Part shown: piece by piece, positions 37,909-48,537 of the stretch | Layout: every line of letters starts with the position of its first letter | How positions within the stretch are numbered: the stretch's first letter is position 1 | Notes under the pieces: generated by a model | Seen by the model: only the letters and a program-made list of their open reading frames with translations | Told to the model about the DNA's origin: nothing | Databases searched by the model: none | Translations under genes and position numbers: made by a program | DNA from: Pseudomonadota bacterium | GTDB lineage: Bacteria > Pseudomonadota > Gammaproteobacteria > Burkholderiales > Thiobacillaceae | DNA length: 64,000 nt | NCBI GenBank assembly: GCA_029558905.1 | Contig: JAKQCX010000035.1 | Location: 124,001-188,000, forward strand | Direction: 5' to 3'

Positions 37909-38433
37909 ATGATCAACCGTGTGCTGGACCGCCTGGAGGAGTGGCTGATCCTCTCCTTCATGGCGGTGGCCACCCTCACCACCTTCGTGTCCGTGGCCCT
38001 GCGCTATGTCATGGGCACGGGCTTCACCTGGGCCACGGAACTCACCATCTACCTGTTCATCTGGATGGCCAAGTTCGGCGCCGCCTATGGCGTGCGCACC
38101 GGCATCCATGTGGGCGTGGACTATGTGGTGGAACGCGCGAAAGGCAGGACACGCACCGCCCTGATCAGTACCGGCCTGGGACTGGGGATCCTGTTCACGG
38201 GTGTGGTGGCCTTTCTGGGGGGGCGCTGGGTAGTGTTCGTCCACGGCACGGGACAGGTGTCGCCGGACCTGGAATGGCCCATGTGGATCATCTATCTGGC
38301 CATCCCCCTGGGCTCCGGCCTCATGTGCTACCGCTTCATCCAGGCCCTGGCAGGATTCCTGCGTACCGGCGATACCGTCAACGCCGGTCCGAGCCATGAA
38401 TATCGCGAGGCCACGGGCAAGGAGCCGCCATGA
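37909..38433 (+). CDS. dctQ: TRAP transporter small permease
   Basis: 174 aa with four helices; WATELTIYLFIWMAKFGAAYGVRTGIHVGVD is the hallmark DctQ segment. Starts 17 bp behind dctP and overlaps dctM by 4 bp. Confidence 0.93.
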   Translation: MINRVLDRLEEWLILSFMAVATLTTFVSVALRYVMGTGFTWATELTIYLFIWMAKFGAAYGVRTGIHVGVDYVVERAKGRTRTALISTGLGLGILFTGVVAFLGGRWVVFVHGTGQVSPDLEWPMWIIYLAIPLGSGLMCYRFIQALAGFLRTGDTVNAGPSHEYREATGKEPP

Positions 38434-39764
38434 CCGCACTCATCATCATGATCATCCTGATGCTGCTGCTCATCACCGGCACCCCCATCTCCATTGCCCT
38501 GGGCATGACGGTGCTGGCCTTCCTGGTGTTCTTCTCGTCCTTCGACATGGTGACGGTGAACATCATCTCCCAGCGCCTGTTCACCGGCCTGGAAAGCTTC
38601 GCCATCATGGCCGTACCCTTCTTCGTGCTGGCCGGCGCCTTCCTCACCGATGGCGGCGTGGCCCGCCGCATCATCAATTTTGCCGTGAACCTGGTGGGCT
38701 GGATGCCGGGCGGCTTGGCCATGGCCTCGGTGCTGGCCTGTGCCTTTTTCGCCACCATGTCGGGTTCCAGTCCCGCCACCGTCATGGCCATCGGCTCCAT
38801 CATGCTGCCGGCCATGATGCAACAGGGCTACCCCAAGGGGTTCAGCACCGCCGTCATCGCCAGCTCCGGCAGCCTGGGCATTCTCATCCCGCCCTCCATC
38901 GTGCTCATCATCTACGCCGTGGCCACTTCCGAGTCCGCCGGCAAGCTGTTCGTGGCCGGGGTGGTGCCGGGTATCCTGCTGGCCATGGTGCTCATGGGCA
39001 CGACCTTGTTCTACGCCAAGAAGCACAACTTTCCCACCGTGCCCCGCGCCAGCTTCAAGGAGGTGGTCAAATCCTTTGTGGATTCCTTCTGGGGCCTGAT
39101 GCTGGTGGTCATCGTCCTGGGCGGCATCTACGGTGGCATCTTCACCCCCACGGAGGCGGCGGCGGTATCGGCGGTCTATGCCTTTGTGTGCGCCGTCTTC
39201 ATCTACCGCAGCCTGCCTCCGCGGGATATCGGCAAGGTGCTTTTGCACGCGGCCAATACTTCGGCCATGCTGATGTACATCATCACCAACGCCATATTGT
39301 TCAACTTTCTCCTCACCTCGGAGCAGATCCCCCAGACCCTGGCCCAGTGGGTGACGGACCAGAACCTGGTGGCCTGGCAATTCCTCATCGTGGTGAACCT
39401 GGTCCTGCTGCTGGCGGGCCAGTTCATGGAACCCAGTTCCATCATCCTCATCCTCGCGCCCCTGTTCCTGCCCATTGCCCACCATCTGGGCATCGATCCC
39501 ATCCACCTGGGCATCATCATGACCGTCAACATGGAAATCGGCATGCTCACGCCGCCGGTTGGCCTCAATCTCTATGTCGCCAGCCACCTGTCCAAGATGG
39601 GCCTGACCGCGGTGAGTCGCGCAGCCCTGCCCTTCGTGGGCGTGATGCTGATCTACCTCATGCTCATCACCTACGTGCCGGAAATCAGCCTATGGCTGGT
39701 GGACCTGCTCTATCCGGACGCGGTCTCCACCGCCCCTGCGACAGCCGGGCAGGTGTTCGACTGA
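38430..39764 (+). CDS. dctM: TRAP transporter large permease
   Basis: 444 aa with about twelve helices. Family segments are visible: GLESFAIMAVPFFVLAGAF, FATMSGSSPATVMAIG, IASSGSLGILIPPSIVLIIYAV, and MEIGMLTPPVGLNLYV near the end. Uses the sodium gradient with DctQ to import ligands delivered by DctP. Small hairpin TTGCCG-TTT-CGGCAA (39782-39796) follows the stop. Confidence 0.94.
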   Translation: MTALIIMIILMLLLITGTPISIALGMTVLAFLVFFSSFDMVTVNIISQRLFTGLESFAIMAVPFFVLAGAFLTDGGVARRIINFAVNLVGWMPGGLAMASVLACAFFATMSGSSPATVMAIGSIMLPAMMQQGYPKGFSTAVIASSGSLGILIPPSIVLIIYAVATSESAGKLFVAGVVPGILLAMVLMGTTLFYAKKHNFPTVPRASFKEVVKSFVDSFWGLMLVVIVLGGIYGGIFTPTEAAAVSAVYAFVCAVFIYRSLPPRDIGKVLLHAANTSAMLMYIITNAILFNFLLTSEQIPQTLAQWVTDQNLVAWQFLIVVNLVLLLAGQFMEPSSIILILAPLFLPIAHHLGIDPIHLGIIMTVNMEIGMLTPPVGLNLYVASHLSKMGLTAVSRAALPFVGVMLIYLMLITYVPEISLWLVDLLYPDAVSTAPATAGQVFD

Positions 39765-39827
39765 CCGCCCGGTCTCCCTTGTTGCCGTTTCGGCAATAAA
39801 TGGTAAGTTGTGAAGACGCTCACTGTC

Positions 39828-39849
39828 TTATCCAGGGATAGTGGGATAA
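39828..39849 (+). promoter_or_regulatory. Inverted repeat upstream of the repeat-protein gene
   Basis: TTATCC (39828-39833) and GGATAA (39844-39849) form a 6-bp palindrome with a 10-bp spacer, within an AT-richer leader about 90 bp before the start. Candidate operator; the cognate regulator is unknown. Confidence 0.4.
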
Positions 39850-39940
39850 AGTGCGGGAGCTGATGCAATTTCGATCATTTCGTACCTCTGTCACAGCATT
39901 TCGTGCCCATTTCTTCATAACCCATCATCAGGAGTCCATG

Positions 39941-41374
39941 ATGCGTAAAACCCTTGTTTCCCTGAGCGCCGTGAGCGCTGCCCTCATGTGCGCGGGCCTG
40001 ATCAACGCCCATGCCGCGGGAACCTTCTACGACCCCACCAATGAGGCCAGCGGATCCGGCAAGACCGTCGGCTACGAGTTGTACAAGACCATCGGCTGCC
40101 CGGGCCAGGGTCTGCTGGACAGGGGTTGCCAGGTTCAGCAGCCCGTTGCCAAGCCCACCCCACCCGTCAAGCCGGCGCCGGTCGTCGAAAAGGCCGCGCC
40201 TGCCTGCCCGCTGCCCCCTGGGGCCGTCTCGGGCGACAAGATCCCTTCCAATGCCAAGGCGGGTGAGTGCTTCGCCAAGGTGGTGCGACCTGCCACGTTC
40301 CGTACCGAGACCGTGCGCAAGCTCGTGAAGGAAGCCAGCGAGCGTATCGAAACCGTGCCGGCCCAATATGAAACCGTGAAGGAAAAGGTGGTGGTGAAGG
40401 AGGCGGGCGAGCGCATCGAGATCCTGCCTCCCGTCTACAAGGCCGTGAAGGTGCGCGTGCAGAGCGAAGAGGTCCAGGAAGTGGTGCCCGCCGTCTACGG
40501 CATGGTCAAGGAACGCGTGCTGGTGAAAGAAGCCAGCACCCGTCTGGAAGAAGTACCCGCGGTATATGAGGAAGTGCAGGAAAAGGTCATGGTGAAGCCG
40601 GCCAGCCGCAACGCCATCGAGGTGCCGGCCGTGTATGAGACCGTGACCGAGCGCAAACTGGTGCGGGAGGCCTACACCACCTGGAAGCCCGGCACGCAGA
40701 CCGCCATCCAGCGCCTCGATCCGACCACGGGCGAGATCATGTGTCTGGTGGAGGTACCTGCCGAATATCAGGATGTGACCCGTCAGGTACTGAAGACACC
40801 GGCCTCCGTGCGCTACGAGGACATTCCGGCGGAATACCAGACCGTGACCAAGACCGTGCTGAAGACCCCGGCCACCACCCGTACCGTGGAGATCCCCGCG
40901 GAGTATGCCGAGCGTGAGGTCGAGAAACTGATCACACCGGCCACGACCGTCACCAAGGTGGTGCCCGTGGATTACGAGCGCGAAATCATGACCATGGTGC
41001 AGCCCGCCACCGAGAAGCGCATCCCCGTGCCAGCCGAGTACACCGAGCGGGAGGTGACCAAGCTGGTGGCACCCGCCAAGGAAGTGCGTGTCGCCATCCC
41101 CGCCGAGTATGCCGACGTGCCCCAGGAGGTCCTGGTATGCCCGGTGCAGGAGTACTGGACCCAGGTGTTGTGCGACGTGAACGCCACACCCGCCAAGATC
41201 ACGGAAATCCAGAAGGCCCTCAAGGCCGCCGGTTTCGACCCCGGCGGCGAGACGGGTAACCTGGATGCCGCCACCATGCGTGCGGTGGGTGAATTCCAGA
41301 AGTCCAAGGGTCTGCCCGTGGATGGCTACCTGGGCATCGAAACCGTCAAGGCCCTGGGGGTATCTCCCAACTGA
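39941..41374 (+). CDS. Periplasmic tandem-repeat protein with peptidoglycan-binding domain
   Basis: 477 aa. Signal peptide to INAHAAG, a Pro-rich segment (residues 65-85), then about twelve copies of a 22-24 residue repeat over residues 113-403 with the core [VI]PAxYxxV...VLVKxAS.R.E. Copies include VPAVYGMVKERVLVKEAST and IPAEYQTVTKTVLKTPATT. The C-terminal 60 residues form a PG_binding_1 domain (IQKALKAAGFDPGG, TMRAVGEFQKSKGLPVDGYLG). ATG at 39941 is favoured over 39938 by GGAG spacing. Probably a wall-bound fibrous protein; the repeat family is not one I can name. Confidence 0.8.
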   Translation: MRKTLVSLSAVSAALMCAGLINAHAAGTFYDPTNEASGSGKTVGYELYKTIGCPGQGLLDRGCQVQQPVAKPTPPVKPAPVVEKAAPACPLPPGAVSGDKIPSNAKAGECFAKVVRPATFRTETVRKLVKEASERIETVPAQYETVKEKVVVKEAGERIEILPPVYKAVKVRVQSEEVQEVVPAVYGMVKERVLVKEASTRLEEVPAVYEEVQEKVMVKPASRNAIEVPAVYETVTERKLVREAYTTWKPGTQTAIQRLDPTTGEIMCLVEVPAEYQDVTRQVLKTPASVRYEDIPAEYQTVTKTVLKTPATTRTVEIPAEYAEREVEKLITPATTVTKVVPVDYEREIMTMVQPATEKRIPVPAEYTEREVTKLVAPAKEVRVAIPAEYADVPQEVLVCPVQEYWTQVLCDVNATPAKITEIQKALKAAGFDPGGETGNLDAATMRAVGEFQKSKGLPVDGYLGIETVKALGVSPN

Positions 41375-41413
41375 CTCCTGACCGGGACCCCAGCCCCGTG
41401 AACCGGGGGAAAA

Positions 41414-41442
41414 ACGGCGCGGCATCTGCCGCGCCGTTTTTT
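41414..41442. terminator. Rho-independent terminator (bidirectional)
   Basis: ACGGCGCGGC-ATCT-GCCGCGCCGT is a perfect 10-bp stem with a T6 run behind it on the plus strand and, as A-run GAAAAA in front, a T5 run on the minus strand. It ends the repeat-protein gene and also the opposing manC transcript. Confidence 0.9.
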
Positions 41443-41464
41443 ATTCTTCTGTCCTGCAAGCCCA

Positions 41465-41665
41465 TCAAGCTTCGGCAGCGTCCTCCCTCGTCTCGCACAT
41501 GCCGGCCTCCGGCACGGAGGAGGCGTGTGGATCTTCCGGTCCGACCCGTTCCCGCCGGCGCTTTTCCCGCTCCACCCTGGACCGGAATTGGGGTGTGCGC
41601 ACCGCCTTGGCTACCGGGTCGCGAGGCCGACGGGGCGGGCCCGAAGCACGTTTCGATCCCCGCAC
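41465..41665 (-). CDS. Small basic protein resembling ArfA (ribosome rescue factor A)
   Basis: 66 aa from GTG at 41665, 3 bp behind the manC stop and thus translationally coupled. Residues 15-40 (DPVAKAVRTPQFRSRVEREK then basic) parallel the E. coli ArfA core, where [21 protein letters not shown] is known: the pattern F-R-x-R-V-E-basic is shared. As in arfA, the 3' coding part folds into a hairpin (41496-41529). Known arfA mRNA is cut by RNase III in such a hairpin, so the product is made without a stop codon and is sensitive to tmRNA. This is a candidate, not proven; it has no other gene in the same region for comparison. Confidence 0.5.
   Translation of the reverse strand: MRGSKRASGPPRRPRDPVAKAVRTPQFRSRVEREKRRRERVGPEDPHASSVPEAGMCETREDAAEA
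41496..41529 (-). other. Imperfect hairpin inside the ArfA-like reading frame
   Basis: CACA-t-GCC-gg-CCTCC-GGCAC-GGAGG-a-GGC-g-TGTG: twelve base pairs with small bulges and a 5-nt loop. It covers roughly codons 46-56 of the small ORF. Position matches the RNase III site known in arfA messages; the role here is inferred. Confidence 0.5.
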
Positions 41666-41668
41666 GGC

Positions 41669-43084
41669 CTAATCCCGTTTGTAGATGTCTTCAAAGCGCA
41701 CGATATCGTCTTCGCCCAGATAGCTGCCAGACTGTACCTCGATGAGGTGCAGAGGCAGCTTGCCCGGGTTGTCCAGACGGTGGGTGGAACCCAGGGGAAT
41801 GTAGGTGGACTGGTTCTCCGACAGGATCATGACCCGGTCGTCGCAGGTGACCCGGGCGGTACCGGACACCACCACCCAGTGCTCGGCACGATGATGGTGC
41901 ATCTGCAGAGAGAGCTTTTCACCGGGCTTGACCATGATGCGCTTGACCTGGAATCGCTCACCCGCATCGATGCCCTCGTACCAGCCCCAAGGGCGGTAGA
42001 CGCGGGTATGGAACTCATGCTCGCTGCGCCCGCTGCGCTTCAGGTGTTCCACCACCTGCTTCACTTCCTGGGTCCGGTTGCGATCCGCCACCAGGACCGC
42101 ATCCGGCGTTTCCACGACGATGAGGTCGTGCACACCGATGGCGGCCACCATGCGGGATTCGGCGCGCACCAGGCTGTTGTGCACGTCCACCAGATGGACA
42201 TCACCCCGTGCCACATTGCCGGCGGCATCCTTGCCGCCCACGTCCCACAGCGCGGACCAGGCACCGATGTCGTTCCAGCCCATGCTGACGGGTACCACGG
42301 CGGCCCGTTTGGTGCGCTCCATGATCGCGTAGTCGATGGAGTCGGTGGGGCAGGCCGCGAACGTGTCCCTGTCCAGGCGACAGAAATCCAGGTCGTGCAC
42401 ACCGGCACGGAGGGACGCCTCGCAGGCACCGAGGATGTCCGGGCGGTGCTGCCGCAGCTCCTGGATGAACTGACTGCAACGGAACAGAAACATGCCGCTG
42501 TTCCAGAAATAGCCGCCCTCCGCCAGGAAGGTCTCCGCCTTGTCCCGTGACGGCTTTTCCACGAAGCGGGCCACACGATAGGCCCCGCCAACCTCCAGGG
42601 TCTCGCCCTGCTGGATGTAGCCATAGCCGGTCTCCGGCGCATCGGGCACGATGCCGAAGGTGGCAAGGCAGCCCGCCTCCACCGCCCGCAGGGCCGTGGC
42701 GATGGCGTTGTGGAAGGCGGCCACGTCACGGATCAGATGATCGGCTGGCAGCAGCAGCATCGTCGCCTCCGGGTCCTGCTGCAGCAGGTGCAGGGCGGCC
42801 ACGGCGGCGGCGGGCGCGGTATTGCGGCCCACGGGTTCCAGGAAGATGCCCGTGGCTTGCATGCCGATCTCCCGCAACTGCTCGGCGATGAGGAAACGGT
42901 GGTCGTCGTTGCAGATCACCAGAGGGGCGCCCATATCCGGCACACCGGACAGACGCAGCAGCGTCTCCTGCACCATGGTGCGCTCCCCGGCCAGGGGCAG
43001 GAGCTGTTTGGGCAGGGCGGCCCGCGACATGGGCCACAGGCGGGTACCGGAACCACCGGAAAGAATGACGGGATAGAGGCTCAT
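41669..43084 (-). CDS. manC: Mannose-1-phosphate guanylyltransferase / mannose-6-phosphate isomerase
   Basis: 471 aa bifunctional enzyme of the AlgA/XanB/CpsB type. The nucleotidyltransferase start SGGSGTRLWPMSRAALPKQLLPL is intact, FVEKPS lies mid-protein, and the C-terminal cupin isomerase has RPWGWYEGI and QMHHHRAEHWVVVSGTA. Makes GDP-mannose for surface polysaccharide. The ATG at 43084 begins SLYPVILSGG. First gene upstream of the small ArfA-like ORF; separated by 115 bp from rmlD. Confidence 0.95.
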   Translation of the reverse strand: MSLYPVILSGGSGTRLWPMSRAALPKQLLPLAGERTMVQETLLRLSGVPDMGAPLVICNDDHRFLIAEQLREIGMQATGIFLEPVGRNTAPAAAVAALHLLQQDPEATMLLLPADHLIRDVAAFHNAIATALRAVEAGCLATFGIVPDAPETGYGYIQQGETLEVGGAYRVARFVEKPSRDKAETFLAEGGYFWNSGMFLFRCSQFIQELRQHRPDILGACEASLRAGVHDLDFCRLDRDTFAACPTDSIDYAIMERTKRAAVVPVSMGWNDIGAWSALWDVGGKDAAGNVARGDVHLVDVHNSLVRAESRMVAAIGVHDLIVVETPDAVLVADRNRTQEVKQVVEHLKRSGRSEHEFHTRVYRPWGWYEGIDAGERFQVKRIMVKPGEKLSLQMHHHRAEHWVVVSGTARVTCDDRVMILSENQSTYIPLGSTHRLDNPGKLPLHLIEVQSGSYLGEDDIVRFEDIYKRD

Positions 43085-43198
43085 AGGGCTTTCTCTTGCA
43101 GGGTTCTGCTCCGTTGTTCCGGCGAATACCAGAAATCCATGGCATCCCGGTATACCGGCCCGCATCGGCGTGACATGCGACGGGATTCCATACCGGTC

Positions 43199-44092
43199 TT
43201 ATTCGGCCTTATCCAGACAAAGCTTGAGGGCGTCGCGCCAGGGCGGCAGGCGCAGGCCGAACACCCGTGCCAGCTTGCCGTTGTCCAGACGTGAATTCAG
43301 GGGACGGTGGGCCGGCGTGGGGTAGTCGGTGCTGGGAATGGGCAGCAAGCGCGGTGGTGCCGCCAAGCCCTCCCAATCCAGGATGGCCTGCGCGAAGCCA
43401 TACCAGGAGGTCTCGCCGGCATTGGTCATGTGATACACACCCCAGGGCTCCGGCCGGTCGGCGCCCCGCAAGGGCGAGGCCAACTGGGCCAGCACCTGGG
43501 CAGTGGCTTCCGCCAGGCCGCGGCACCAGGTGGGCGCGCCCACCTGGTCGTCGACGATCTTCAATTCCGGCCTCTCCCGCACCAGCCGGCGCATGGTGAG
43601 CAGGAAGTTGGTGCCCCGGGCACCGTACACCCAGGAAGTGCGAAAGATGAGATGGTGACAGCCGCTGGCGATGATGGCCTGCTCGCCGGCCAGCTTGGTG
43701 GCGCCGTAGACATTGACGGGAGCGGTGGGGTCATTCTCCTTCCAAGGCGAGATGCCGCCACCACCGAAAACGTAGTCCGTGGAGTAGTGCACCAGCAGGG
43801 CGCCGGATTTCGCCGCCGCCTCCGCCAGGATGCCGGGGGCCTCGGCATTCACCTTGCGGGCCAGATCCGGCTCGCGCTCCGCCTGGTCCACGGCGGTGTA
43901 GGCGGCCGGGTTGACGATGAGGCGGGGCCGGACCTCCGCCAGTGCGCGGCGGATGGCGTCCGGGTCCGCCAGATCCATGGCCCGGGAATCCATGGCCACC
44001 ACCTGGCCCAGGGTGGCCAGGGTACGGTGCAGTTCCCAGCCCACCTGACCGTTGGCGCCGGTGAGCAGGATGCGGGTCGGCGGGGCGTTCAC
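43199..44092 (-). CDS. rmlD: dTDP-4-dehydrorhamnose reductase
   Basis: 297 aa short-chain reductase: LLTGANGQVGWEL (NADPH site), YSTDYVFGG, and YGATKLAGE with the YxxxK pair. The GTG start at 44092 overlaps the rmlC stop by 3 bp (GTGA). Last step of dTDP-L-rhamnose synthesis. Confidence 0.95.
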   Translation of the reverse strand: MNAPPTRILLTGANGQVGWELHRTLATLGQVVAMDSRAMDLADPDAIRRALAEVRPRLIVNPAAYTAVDQAEREPDLARKVNAEAPGILAEAAAKSGALLVHYSTDYVFGGGGISPWKENDPTAPVNVYGATKLAGEQAIIASGCHHLIFRTSWVYGARGTNFLLTMRRLVRERPELKIVDDQVGAPTWCRGLAEATAQVLAQLASPLRGADRPEPWGVYHMTNAGETSWYGFAQAILDWEGLAAPPRLLPIPSTDYPTPAHRPLNSRLDNGKLARVFGLRLPPWRDALKLCLDKAE

Positions 44093-44631
44093 GGATAGAC
44101 CTCCGCATCCTTGAGGCAGGGTTGGCCCTGGTCCTTGGCAGAAAGTGTGGGCACGCCCTGCAGGGGCCATTGCACGCCGATGTCCGGGTCGTCCCAGCGG
44201 ATGCCCCGGTCCCATTCCGGCGCATAGTAGGCGCTGGCCTTGTAGAGGAAATCGGCTGTGTCCGACAGCACCAGGAAGCCATGGCCGAAGCCCGGGGGGA
44301 TCCACAGCATGCGATGGTTGTCGGCGGAGAGTTCATAACCTACCCACTTGCCGAAACGAGGAGAGGACCGCCGCAGGTCCACGGCCACGTCGAACACCGC
44401 GCCGCTCACCACGCGCACCAGCTTGCCCTGGGGCTGATGGAGTTGGTAATGCAGGCCCCTCAACACCCCCTGGGCGGAGCGGGAGTGGTTGTCCTGCACG
44501 AAGTCCAGGTCCAGGCCCAGGCTGGCAAAACTGTTCCGGTTCCAGCTTTCCAGGAAGAAGCCCCGGGCATCGCCGAACACCTTGGGTTCCAGCAACAGCA
44601 CGTCGGGGAGCCCGGTCTCGATGACCCGCAT
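44089..44631 (-). CDS. rmlC: dTDP-4-dehydrorhamnose 3,5-epimerase
   Basis: 180 aa cupin. RGFFLESWN, VLRGLHYQLHQPQGKLVRV with the catalytic His, and IPPGFGHGFLVLS mark RmlC; size is typical (about 180). Overlaps rmlA by 1 bp and rmlD by 3-4 bp, in the order rmlB-A-C-D on this strand. Confidence 0.96.
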   Translation of the reverse strand: MRVIETGLPDVLLLEPKVFGDARGFFLESWNRNSFASLGLDLDFVQDNHSRSAQGVLRGLHYQLHQPQGKLVRVVSGAVFDVAVDLRRSSPRFGKWVGYELSADNHRMLWIPPGFGHGFLVLSDTADFLYKASAYYAPEWDRGIRWDDPDIGVQWPLQGVPTLSAKDQGQPCLKDAEVYP

Positions 44632-45512
44632 CAGAACACCTTCTCGTCGAGCATGGACAGCAGGTACTGGCCATAGCCGTTCTTCTTCAGGGGCTCGGCC
44701 AGGCGGAGCATCTGCTCCGCCGTGATGTAGCCCTGGCGGTAGGCGATCTCCTCCGGGCAGGCCACCTTGAGGCCCTGGCGCTTCTCGATGGTCTGGATGA
44801 ACAGCCCGGCCTCCAGCAGGGATTCGTGGGTGCCGGTATCCAGCCAGGCGTGGCCCCGGCCCATGATGGAGACGTTGAGCTCGCCCCAGGCCAGATACTG
44901 GCGGTTGACGTCGGTGATCTCCAGTTCGCCCCGGGGGGAGGGTTTCAGGGTGCGGACGATATCCACCACGCGGGTGTCGTAGAAATACAGGCCGGTGACG
45001 GCGTAATGGGACTTGGGTCGGACGGGCTTCTCCTCCAGGCTCACGGCCCGGCCCTGGGGACCGAATTCCACTACGCCGTAGCGTTCCGGGTCATGCACCC
45101 GATAGGCGAAAACGGTGGCGCCCTGCCCGCCTTCACCGGCCGCCTTCAGGTCCTTGGCCAAGTCGTGGCCGTAGAAAATGTTGTCACCCAGCACCAGGGC
45201 ACTGGGGTGGCCACCGATGAAATCTGCGCCGATGACGAAGGCCTGGGCCAGGCCGTCCGGGCTGGGCTGCACCGCGTAGCTCAGGTGGATGCCCCACTGA
45301 CCCCCATCGCCCAAGAGCTGGGCAAAACGCGGCGTATCCTGCGGCGTGGAGATGATCAGGATGTCCCGCATGCCCGCCAGCATCAGTGTGGTGAGCGGGT
45401 GGTAGATCATGGGCTTGTCGTAGATGGGCAGCAGTTGCTTGGACACCGCCAGGGTGGCGGGGTACAGACGGGTGCCACTGCCACCGGCGAGGATGATTCC
45501 CCGGCGCTGCAT
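44631..45512 (-). CDS. rmlA: Glucose-1-phosphate thymidylyltransferase
   Basis: 293 aa. [31 protein letters not shown] is the RmlA start signature; EEKP and [11 protein letters not shown] follow. ATG at 45512, 2 bp behind the rmlB stop. First enzyme of dTDP-rhamnose synthesis. Confidence 0.96.
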
Positions 45513-45514
45513 GC

Positions 45515-46576
45515 TCAATTCCTCCCCGCGTAGTTGGTGTCGAGCCACTTGCGGTATTCGCCGCTCGCCACGTCTTCCACCCAGTCCATGTGCTCCAGAT
45601 ACCACTGCACCGTCTTGCGGATGCCGGTCGCGAAGGTCTCCGCCGGCCTCCAGCCCAGCTCGCGATGGATCCTGGTGGCATCGATGGCGTAGCGGCGGTC
45701 GTGGCCCGGGCGGTCCGTGACGTAGGTGACGAGCCGCTGGTAGGGACCGGCCGGGTCAGGGCGCATCTCGTCCAGCAGGGTGCACACCCTTTCGACGATC
45801 TCGATATTGGGCATCTCGTTCCAGCCCCCCACGTTGTAGACCTCTCCCGGTCTGCCCTTGTCCAGCACCTCCAGGATGGCCGTGCAGTGGTCACTCACAT
45901 ACAGCCAATCACGCACGTTCATGCCGTCACCATAGATGGGCAGGGGCTTGCCCCGGGTGGCGTTGAGGATGATGAGCGGAATGAGCTTCTCGGGAAACTG
46001 GTAGGGGCCGTAGTTGTTGGAGCAGTTGGTGGTAAGGGTGGGCAGACCGTAGGTGTGGTGGTAGGCACGCACCAGGTGGTCGGAGGCGGCCTTGCTGGCC
46101 GAGTAGGGGCTGTTGGGGGCGAAGGGGGTGTCCTCGGTGAAGGGGGCATCTTCCTGGCCCAGGGAGCCGTAGACCTCATCGGTGGACACATGCAGGAAGC
46201 GGAAGGTGGTCTTCTCCGCCTCGGGCAGATTCATCCAATGGCCCCGTGCCTCCTCCAGCAGGTGAAAGGTGCCCACCACATTGGTCTGGATGAAGTCCTC
46301 CGGACCATGGATGGAACGGTCCACATGGGATTCGGCGGCGAAGTTGACGATGGCCCGGGGCCGGTGCAGGGCCAACAGCTTGCCCACCAGCTCCCGCTCG
46401 CCGATATCCCCCTTGATGAATATGTGGCGCGGATCATCCCTGAGACTGTCCAGGTTGCGCGGGTTCCCCGCGTAGGTGAGCTTGTCCAGGTTGAGGACCG
46501 GTTCATCATGCTGCCGCAGCCAGTCCAGGACGAAGTTGGCGCCGATGAAACCCGCGCCGCCGGTGACCAGAATCAT
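45515..46576 (-). CDS. rmlB: dTDP-glucose 4,6-dehydratase
   Basis: 353 aa. [10 protein letters not shown] (NAD site), [17 protein letters not shown] and the YSASK catalytic pair are visible. ATG at 46576 overlaps the galE stop by 4 bp. Confidence 0.96.
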
Positions 46577-47601
46577 GTCGTACCTCGTGTATAGCCATGG
46601 GGGTTCATGGACTGCCAGCGCCAGGCATCGGCGCACATGGCCTGCAAGCCCCGTTCGGCACGCCAGCCCAGCTCTTGCAGCGCCTTGTCCGCATCGGCCC
46701 AGCACTGGGCCACATCCCCTGCCCGCCGGGGTGCGAAGCGGTACGCCACGGGCCGGCCCGATGCCTGTTCCATGGCATGTACCATGTCCAGCACGCTATA
46801 GCCCCGACCAGTGCCCAGGTTCCAGACGCCCACCCCCGGGCCCTCGGCCAGTTTCTCCAGCGCCTTCACATGGCCCCGGGCCAGGTCCACCACGTGGATG
46901 TAGTCCCGCACTCCGGTACCGTCCGGCGTGGGGTAGTCGTTGCCGAAGACGCTCAGGAATTCCCGCCGGCCCACCGCCACCTGGGTGATGTAGGGCATGA
47001 GGTTATTGGGGATGCCCTGGGGGTCCTCGCCGATCCGACCGCTCTCGTGCGCGCCAACCGGGTTGAAGTAGCGCAGCAGGGCCACGCGCCACGCGGGGTC
47101 GGCAATGGCCAGGTCCTGGAGGATCTTCTCGATGAACAGTTTGCTGGTGCCGTAGGGGTTGGTGGTGCCGCCCACGGGAAAGTCCTCGCGGATGGGTACG
47201 CTGGCCGGATCGCCATACACCGTGGCGGAGGAGCTGAAGACGATGCTCTTCACCCCGGCGGACTGCATGGCCTCGAACAGGGTGAGGCTGCCGCGGATGT
47301 TGTTGTCGTAGTACAGCAGGGGCTTGGCCACCGACTCGCCCACCGCCTTGAGACCGGCGAAGTGGATCACCGCGTCGATGTCGTGCCGGCGGAACAGAGT
47401 ATCCAGCCCTGAACGGTCACGGATGTCGCCTTCGATGAAGATCAGGTCCCGGCCGGTGAGGGCCTGCACCCGCGCCAGGGCCTCCGGGCTGCTGTTGCAA
47501 AGGTTGTCCAGCACTACCACGTCGTAGCCGGCCTGCAGGAATTCCAGACAGGCATGGGAACCGATATAGCCCGCGCCGCCGGTGACCAGGATGGTTTTCA
47601 T
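46573..47601 (-). CDS. galE: UDP-glucose 4-epimerase
   Basis: 342 aa. [38 protein letters not shown] (YxxxK) and [20 protein letters not shown] are GalE motifs. ATG at 47601. It heads the block galE-rmlB-rmlA-rmlC-rmlD; purU lies 81 bp upstream on the same strand. Interconverts UDP-glucose and UDP-galactose for polysaccharide. Confidence 0.95.
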
Positions 47602-47682
47602 GCTCGTTGTCTCCCAAAACTGATGGAATGCCGCGCTCACCCATTGGCTGGCCGGATTCCGGTCCGATGGCAGCTGTCTGCC

Positions 47683-48537
47683 TCAGTCGAATACTACCGT
47701 CTTGTTGCCGTACACCAGGATACGGTTGTCGATGTGCCACTTCACTGCCCGGGAGAGCACCACCTTCTCCAGGTCCGCCCCCTTCTGCACCAGGTCCTCC
47801 AGATCGTCGCGGTGGCTGATGCGGGTCACGTCCTGCTCGATGATGGGGCCGTCATCCAGCACCTCCGTGACATAGTGACTGGTGGCGCCGATGAGCTTCA
47901 CGCCCCGCTCGAAGGCCCGCTGGTAAGGCTTGGCGCCGTGGAAGGCGGGCAGGAAGGAATGGTGGATGTTGATGATGCGGTTGGGATAGTGGCTGATGAA
48001 ATCGCGGGAAAGCACCTGCATGTAACGGGCCAGGACGATGAAGTCCACGTGGTGGGCCGCCAGCAGTGCCTGCTGCTGGGCTTCGGCATCCGGCTTGATG
48101 GCCTTGTTCACCGGGATGTGCCGGAAAGGGATGCGATAGGCCTCCGCCAGCCAGTGGGTATCCGGGTGGTTGCTGATGATGAGGGGGATGTCGCAGTACA
48201 GCTCCCCGGCATGCTGGCGGTAGAGCAGGTCCGCCAGGCAGTGATCGAACCTGGACACGAAGATGGCCATGCGCGGCCTGACGCTGGCCAGGGCAAGACG
48301 CCAGTCCATCTGGTGCGCGGCGGCCACGGGCGCGAAGGTCTCGGCGAACCGGTGCAATCCCAGGGTAAAGCCCTCCAGGGCCCACTCCACCCGCATGAGA
48401 AACAGACCCGCCTCGCTGTCCTGGTGCTGGTCCGCGTGCAGGATGTTGGCGTCGTGCGCCAGCAGGAAGTTGGCGATGGCAGCCACCAGTCCCTTCTTGT
48501 CGGGACAGGCGATGAGCAGGACGGCGGTGTTGCGCAT
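47683..48537 (-). CDS. purU: Formyltetrahydrofolate deformylase
   Basis: 284 aa. N-terminal ACT domain (VLLIACPDKKGLVAAIANFLL) and C-terminal formyl-hydrolase domain with LARYMQVLS, NIHHSFLPAFHGAKPY and the catalytic Asp near DDGPIIEQD. Releases formate from 10-formyl-THF for PurT-type purine synthesis and C1 balance. Upstream of galE; the relation to the sugar genes is probably chance. Confidence 0.94.
   Translation of the reverse strand: MRNTAVLLIACPDKKGLVAAIANFLLAHDANILHADQHQDSEAGLFLMRVEWALEGFTLGLHRFAETFAPVAAAHQMDWRLALASVRPRMAIFVSRFDHCLADLLYRQHAGELYCDIPLIISNHPDTHWLAEAYRIPFRHIPVNKAIKPDAEAQQQALLAAHHVDFIVLARYMQVLSRDFISHYPNRIINIHHSFLPAFHGAKPYQRAFERGVKLIGATSHYVTEVLDDGPIIEQDVTRISHRDDLEDLVQKGADLEKVVLSRAVKWHIDNRILVYGNKTVVFD

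Follow-up and report, generated by a model that had tools for sequence, protein, structure and literature searches.

Organization of the locus

The window (the whole 64,000-nucleotide stretch of DNA that was analysed) carries on its minus strand a 66-codon open reading frame (ORF) with a GTG start codon, located 3 bp past the stop codon of manC; this arrangement had been proposed in the initial annotation and was confirmed here at positions 41465–41665. The 66-amino-acid product carries VRTPQFRSRVEREKRRRER. As rmlD, rmlC, a nucleotidyltransferase gene and two epimerase/dehydratase genes lie upstream of manC, the 66-codon ORF terminates a nucleotide-sugar gene run. The features of the locus are as follows:

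39851–41374, plus strand: convergent gene with a peptidoglycan-binding domain, facing the 66-codon ORF
41409–41442, both strands: intrinsic-terminator-like hairpin between the two convergent genes, 3' of the ORF stop codon
41465–41665, minus strand: 66-codon ORF, GTG start, very probably encoding a DUF7230-like small basic protein; conserved core at residues 4–36
41496–41529, minus strand: imperfect hairpin of the initial annotation, at chance level and without conservation
41570–41620, minus strand: codons 16–32 (DPVAKAVRTPQFRSRVE), counterpart, as placed via the family alignment, of residues 14–30 of E. coli ArfA (RF2-docking segment)
41669–43165, minus strand: manC, mannose-1-phosphate guanylyltransferase/mannose-6-phosphate isomerase (TIGR01479, E 3.7e-216), directly upstream of the ORF
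43199–47640, minus strand: rest of the nucleotide-sugar run, upstream of manC, made up of the next four lines
43199–44305, minus strand: rmlD
44089–44631, minus strand: rmlC
44631–45605, minus strand: nucleotidyltransferase gene, probably rmlA
45515–46705 and 46573–47640, minus strand: two epimerase/dehydratase genes

The product of the convergent gene shows, by eye, many degenerate 'VPAxYxxV' repeats in addition to its C-terminal peptidoglycan-binding domain. No Rfam family reached threshold within positions 38000–48000.

The 66-codon ORF is a conserved gene

A search at E≤1e-3 detected relatives of the product in 25 of the 36 other genomes examined from the host's bacterial family and in none of 24 genomes outside that family. 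The absence of the ORF from close relatives, which the initial annotation had named as evidence against its proposal, was not observed: a profile built from 23 members gave matches at E≤1e-3 in 40 of the 117 family genomes, the host genome being counted. When the same profile was run over 399 genomes of the host's order, 8 matched at E<1e-4, all of them in the host's family, and the best match beyond this family had an E-value of 9.5e-4. The alignment (A1) comprises 23 of the 27 likely members, four copies (L023, L025, L026 and L027) being excluded for insertions or degeneracy, and gives the core consensus [SNGA]KRxSGPPRRPRNPVAKAVRTPxFKxRVVPDKRW. The tests on 35 loci reported below include the 66-codon ORF as well as these four copies. 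Over the 28-codon core (595 pairs, 35 loci), the mean pN was 0.19 versus a pS of 0.50. In 31 of the 35 loci, the gene overlaps the upstream gene or starts at most 13 nt from its stop codon (for one of the loci, L019, the start was reassigned and the distance computed by hand). These data indicate that the 66-codon ORF is a real gene under purifying selection on the protein.

Several copies depart from this pattern. L026 and L027 have degenerate cores (pN 0.42 and 0.40, respectively, versus the 66-codon ORF), and the genomes that host them, G007 and G004, both have ArfB. L023 and L025 share, inside the ORF, 19 extra residues inserted in frame (SEVVGGSAALRIRRAPGGY); the DNA of L023 contains a palindromic stretch, and the insertion resembles a small palindromic element inserted into a coding region. 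In four other copies (L002, L013, L016 and L021), REP-like palindromes start, by eye, at or just past the TAG stop codon, which suggests that the stop is provided by the element or borders on it.

The protein is of the DUF7230 kind

The 66-amino-acid product itself matched no Pfam family, neither ArfA nor DUF7230, and no NCBIfam family, the latter collection being uninformative here, as it is silent even on one true Neisseriaceae ArfA. Among its relatives, DUF7230 (PF23876) was matched by 19 of the 23 aligned members at E≤10, with a best E-value of 2.1e-10. Among 14 relatives scanned singly, four exceeded the curated DUF7230 cut-off of 27 bits (L003, 29.9; L005, 36.6; L007, 32.7; L010, 41.0); the remaining ten were below it, one of them without any match. 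By contrast with these values, the ArfA profile (PF03889) was matched by one of the 23 members, at an E-value of 0.11 and with 12.5 bits, less than half of the 25.5-bit cut-off. The Pfam ArfA search that had been suggested with the initial annotation thus returned no match for the product, and none in its own genome.

Profile-profile comparisons using hhalign gave 24.5 for the family profile versus DUF7230 and 19.7 versus ArfA, both above 500 of 500 column shuffles; the corresponding hhalign probabilities are modest (51% and 10%). The family of the ORF therefore scores higher against DUF7230 than against ArfA. A direct comparison between DUF7230 and ArfA gave 14.8, a score that was equalled by 10 of 500 shuffles and is thus weak.

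Like DUF7230 proteins, members of the ORF's family are short and basic and have R-N-P-V-A-K around position 14, followed 17–18 residues further on by a D-K motif; the 66-amino-acid product differs in having no profile match of its own. The Thiobacillaceae branch is set apart from DUF7230 by the addition of SGPPRRP ahead of the motif and of PxFRxRVVPDKRW behind it, as well as by a C-terminus that varies and is mostly acidic. Taken together, these comparisons make it very probable that the 66-codon ORF specifies a real protein, conserved, small and basic, of the Pfam DUF7230 type.

A limited literature search on the term DUF7230 retrieved no paper. A plasmid search with two DUF7230 proteins returned no match, and a profile of 13 DUF7230 proteins run against the PDB recovered no ArfA and two unrelated matches with E-values of about 1. 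The sole match on a viral contig (L140) was discarded as a false positive because its frame reads as an HNH-type endonuclease.

A segment resembles the RF2-docking segment of ArfA

In the initial annotation, residues 15–40 of the product had been said to follow the ArfA pattern. The resemblance around FRxRV goes beyond composition, as the hhalign score quoted above demonstrates, but it does not amount to membership in the ArfA family. The N..P-x-F-R-x-R-V stretch aligns without gaps and in the same register as the segment of E. coli ArfA that docks RF2. The ArfA alignment on which this placement is based is that of one relative, L012 (gapless over N14–K36, z 6.8), and the 66-amino-acid product was positioned through the 23-row family alignment. 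Pairwise comparison with E. coli ArfA gave a z-score of 5.2 for the product and of 3.3–7.3 for five relatives, the highest being that of L022 (7.3). Against four other ArfA proteins the z-scores ranged from -0.2 to 7.5, and DUF7230 proteins compared with ArfA gave -0.9 to 3.0. In passages of a review, F25 and residues 27–30 of ArfA are described as docking RF2 (PMC8012679). The positions of the family that match ArfA include F25 and the strand 27–30 and, by resemblance, may constitute a docking segment. A PDB search with the family profile returned 15 matches, of which four were ArfA sequences with non-significant E-values (0.75–1.1), ranked behind unrelated proteins.

Outside this segment the two families differ. 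The product is similar to ArfA in size and in the gapless match over E. coli ArfA residues 14–36, but the GKG[SA]YxR tail, which all 13 aligned ArfA rows have, was found in none of the 35 loci of the ORF's family, in 31 of which the residues beyond position 36 are net acidic or neutral. A tail of the KGKGS type binds the mRNA channel in ArfA, according to the sections consulted of PMC6299226, and ArfA shortened to 40 residues loses activity, as summarized in part of the review PMC8012679. The same passages state that replacement of A18 by Thr blocks RF2 activation (PMC8012679); at the position of A18, the family has Lys in 20 and Arg in 3 of the 23 aligned rows. A KH motif, said there to be common to ArfA and BrfA (PMC8012679), occurs at residues 31–50 in 6 of the 35 loci, and also in the DUF7230 genes L079 and L080. 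The ORF was therefore rejected as a member of the ArfA family: it has no Pfam match, the GKGSY motif is missing in all 35 loci and the C-terminus is mostly acidic.

Two other proteins were considered. ArfT of Francisella, likened here from passages of PMC6299226 rather than from its full sequence, is likewise a basic rescue factor, of 40 residues, and in these passages is apparently not under the control of an ArfA-like non-stop message; its tail reads KKGGSTNKK and its F25 position lacks a hydrophobic residue, whereas nearly all rows of the ORF's family have F or Y at this position and none has a tail of the KKGGSTNKK type. A connection with SmpB, whose tail carries a DKR motif (as described in part of PMC8012679), was considered and abandoned: 26 of the 35 loci have DKR but the 66-amino-acid product does not, and no SmpB was among the 15 PDB matches.

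The hairpin inside the ORF is at chance level

The initial annotation had also described a twelve-pair imperfect hairpin at 41496–41529. Such a hairpin can be drawn, of 12 pairs when the whole ORF is folded and of 13 pairs when 41496–41529 is folded alone, but it is no better than expected by chance: the whole-ORF fold had a z-score of +0.74 relative to dinucleotide shuffles, 155 of 200 of which were at least as stable.

For comparison between genes, the 3' part of each ORF was scanned for its most stable fold of 40 nt, which was scored relative to dinucleotide shuffles; with the 50–60 shuffles made in each case, single z values shift by about 1 between runs. Two stretches were used, a short one (codon 31 to the stop codon) and a wide one (codon 26 to 20 nt past the stop codon), on three sets: the 35 family loci, 18 of 24 extracted arfA genes (after removal of near-identical ones) and 28 DUF7230 genes (after removal of those that were near-identical or below threshold). 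The 66-codon ORF had a z of -0.44 in the short stretch, 19 of 60 shuffles being as good, and repeats gave -0.88 (wide stretch) and -0.87 (short stretch). In the first run on the short stretch, 3 of 35 family loci were below -1.5 (mean 0.05), versus 16 of 18 arfA genes (mean -2.91). With the wide stretch the counts were 5 of 35 (mean -0.12) and 18 of 18 (mean -3.59), respectively, and 3 of 28 for the DUF7230 genes (mean -0.08). A repeat on the short stretch gave 5 of 35 for the family, 16 of 18 for arfA and 2 of the 13 DUF7230 genes of sufficient length; L079 was missing from these positives because its stem extends past the stop codon. As the arfA controls were positive in nearly all cases and the ORF's family in 3–5 of 35, the hairpin of the initial annotation is ordinary for G+C-rich DNA, and it is not conserved in relatives. 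A terminator scan of positions 41300–41800 identified a sole terminator-like element, the one at 41409–41442, after the stop codon and outside the ORF. A conserved RNase III site within the ORF was thus discarded, as the fold is at chance level and is not conserved.

Three DUF7230 genes carry strong hairpins

Unexpectedly, 3 of the 28 DUF7230 genes (L079, L080 and L083) have a strong hairpin or terminator that lies within the ORF or crosses its end (z -3.6, -5.0 and -6.0, respectively; -5.3, -4.0 and -5.2 in the repeat). Their ORFs, on the strand as read, are located at:

L079: 1477–1638
L080: 1477–1644
L083: 1489–1665

In L079 and L080, a long hairpin spans the end of the ORF, the stop codon being within the 3' arm soon after an NKHRG/NKHKG motif. 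When the 22 pairs of this hairpin were compared between the two genes, 18 were identical, 1 showed a compensatory change, 2 had one-sided changes and 1 was lost (21 of 22 kept). L083 has a perfect terminator-like stem followed by a T-run, which ends 31 nt ahead of the stop codon. Neither the L079 nor the L083 hairpin was found as a repeat in the searched parts of the two genomes (370,577 and 319,337 bases). Perfect stems of at least 13 pairs with loops of 3–10 numbered 0 and 5 in these parts, and the five include the L083 stem; that of L079 has mismatches and falls outside this count. Of the other 25 DUF7230 genes, all without such a hairpin, 23 come from one AT-rich order and two (L082 and L084) from elsewhere.

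A hairpin or terminator located before the stop codon has been described for arfA and brfA in passages of PMC8012679, and the arrangement predicted in L079, L080 and L083 matches it. BrfA of Bacillus subtilis, which we liken by this description and not by sequence, is a small rescue factor with a terminator ahead of the stop codon (same source), as in the DUF7230 gene L083; the 66-codon ORF, in contrast, has no terminator within the ORF.

Ribosome-rescue factors in the host and its relatives

According to the parts consulted of PMC11633108, the Proteobacteria studied require trans-translation or an Arf factor, and among 1,000 betaproteobacterial genomes arfA was found in 37 and arfB in 709. 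Our searches detected ArfA in 4 of 300 genomes of the host's order, all in one genus, and in 19 of 61 genomes of the family to which this genus belongs. One genome of a Neisseria-like family (G765) has two arfA genes (L070 and L078) on the same strand, separated by about 2 kb. ArfB was missing in 23 of 61 genomes searched, the host genome among these. Neither ArfA nor ArfB was detected in the host genome, an absence that is uncertain because the assembly is 89.8% complete. Three genomes of the host's family show neither the gene described here nor ArfB. Intact copies were commoner where ArfB is missing (13/12 versus 3/9; Fisher p 0.11; p 0.38 when any trace of the gene is counted), a tendency that is suggestive but not significant among these 37 family genomes, which include several incomplete ones (e.g., G012, 58%; G018, 71%), are not independent and were labelled as intact or decayed by the analyst (G004, G007 and G008 as decayed).

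Discussion

The reading that we favour, with a probability of about 0.4, is that the 66-codon ORF encodes a small protein of the DUF7230 type that is possibly a release-factor-recruiting rescue factor or the descendant of one. The protein would be made via translational coupling, its message being an ordinary one that retains the stop codon, and its Arg/Pro-rich N-terminus and PxFRxRV segment would bind the ribosome and probably also a release factor; by such binding it would work like a rescue factor of the ArfA/BrfA type, or would derive from one. Unlike ArfA, it would escape tmRNA control, and it would be without the conserved basic tail of the mRNA channel, some relatives having a KH motif. 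On the basis of these sequence comparisons, a rescue-factor role for the 66-amino-acid product appears plausible.

A realistic alternative, to which we also give considerable weight, is that the product is a small basic DUF7230 protein associated with RNA or the ribosome and without a rescue role, the ArfA-like stretch being a common short motif or the result of convergence between basic peptides. That DUF7230 is matched more strongly than ArfA, that the GKGSY tail is missing and the C-terminus mostly acidic, that 30 of 35 loci (32 of 35 in the first run) give no hairpin signal and that the ArfA matches in the PDB are insignificant (E 0.75–1.1) all agree with such a protein; it accounts less well for an ArfA-like alignment that is gapless, in register and above all column shuffles, and for three DUF7230 genes with hairpins of the ArfA/BrfA type.

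It is improbable that the product regulates nucleotide-sugar synthesis or assists it as an accessory peptide, functionally tied to ManC or RmlD by translational coupling. Judged by eye from the C-termini, the upstream gene in the 35 loci is manC in 13, rmlD in 14, ispD in 4, a nitroreductase-like gene in 2 and apparently rmlB in 1; in L017, no gene immediately precedes the ORF. For manC, rmlD, ispD and the nitroreductase-like gene, a profile match confirmed the assignment in one locus each. The manC and rmlD contexts are what such a peptide would predict, but the ispD, nitroreductase-like and unpreceded loci are not, nor are the DUF7230 genes of another order, which by eye adjoin cysteine-synthase-like and other genes. 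With upstream genes this varied, a special link to GDP-mannose synthesis, raised in the initial annotation, is unsupported: manC is one of several contexts, and a dedicated GDP-mannose function was set aside.

The proposal put forward there, that of a true ArfA with an mRNA cleaved at a hairpin inside the ORF to yield a non-stop message under tmRNA control, is very improbable. It drew on the FRSRVE segment and on a hairpin that can indeed be drawn; it is opposed by the lack of an ArfA profile match in the product or the genome, by a hairpin that is at chance level and unconserved in a test that was positive in 16 or 18 of 18 arfA genes, by the position of the terminator-like element past the stop codon and by the missing GKGSY tail. 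Finally, a chance ORF without a product can be dismissed: open frames are many in high G+C DNA and the product itself matches no family, but the protein is conserved with a low pN/pS in 35 loci, 31 of which start at most 13 nt from or overlap the preceding gene.

Returning to the reading of a DUF7230-type protein related to rescue factors, it may be extended to the whole family, in a form that we regard as speculative and rather unlikely: DUF7230, including its Thiobacillaceae branch, would be an unrecognised family of release-factor-recruiting rescue factors, of which L079, L080 and L083 would be produced from non-stop messages, whereas the branch described here would have kept the RF2-docking segment, moved behind housekeeping genes and come to be made from ordinary messages. 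If true, an overlooked family of tiny rescue factors would help to explain how these bacteria cope when trans-translation fails, and DUF7230 would acquire its first testable function.
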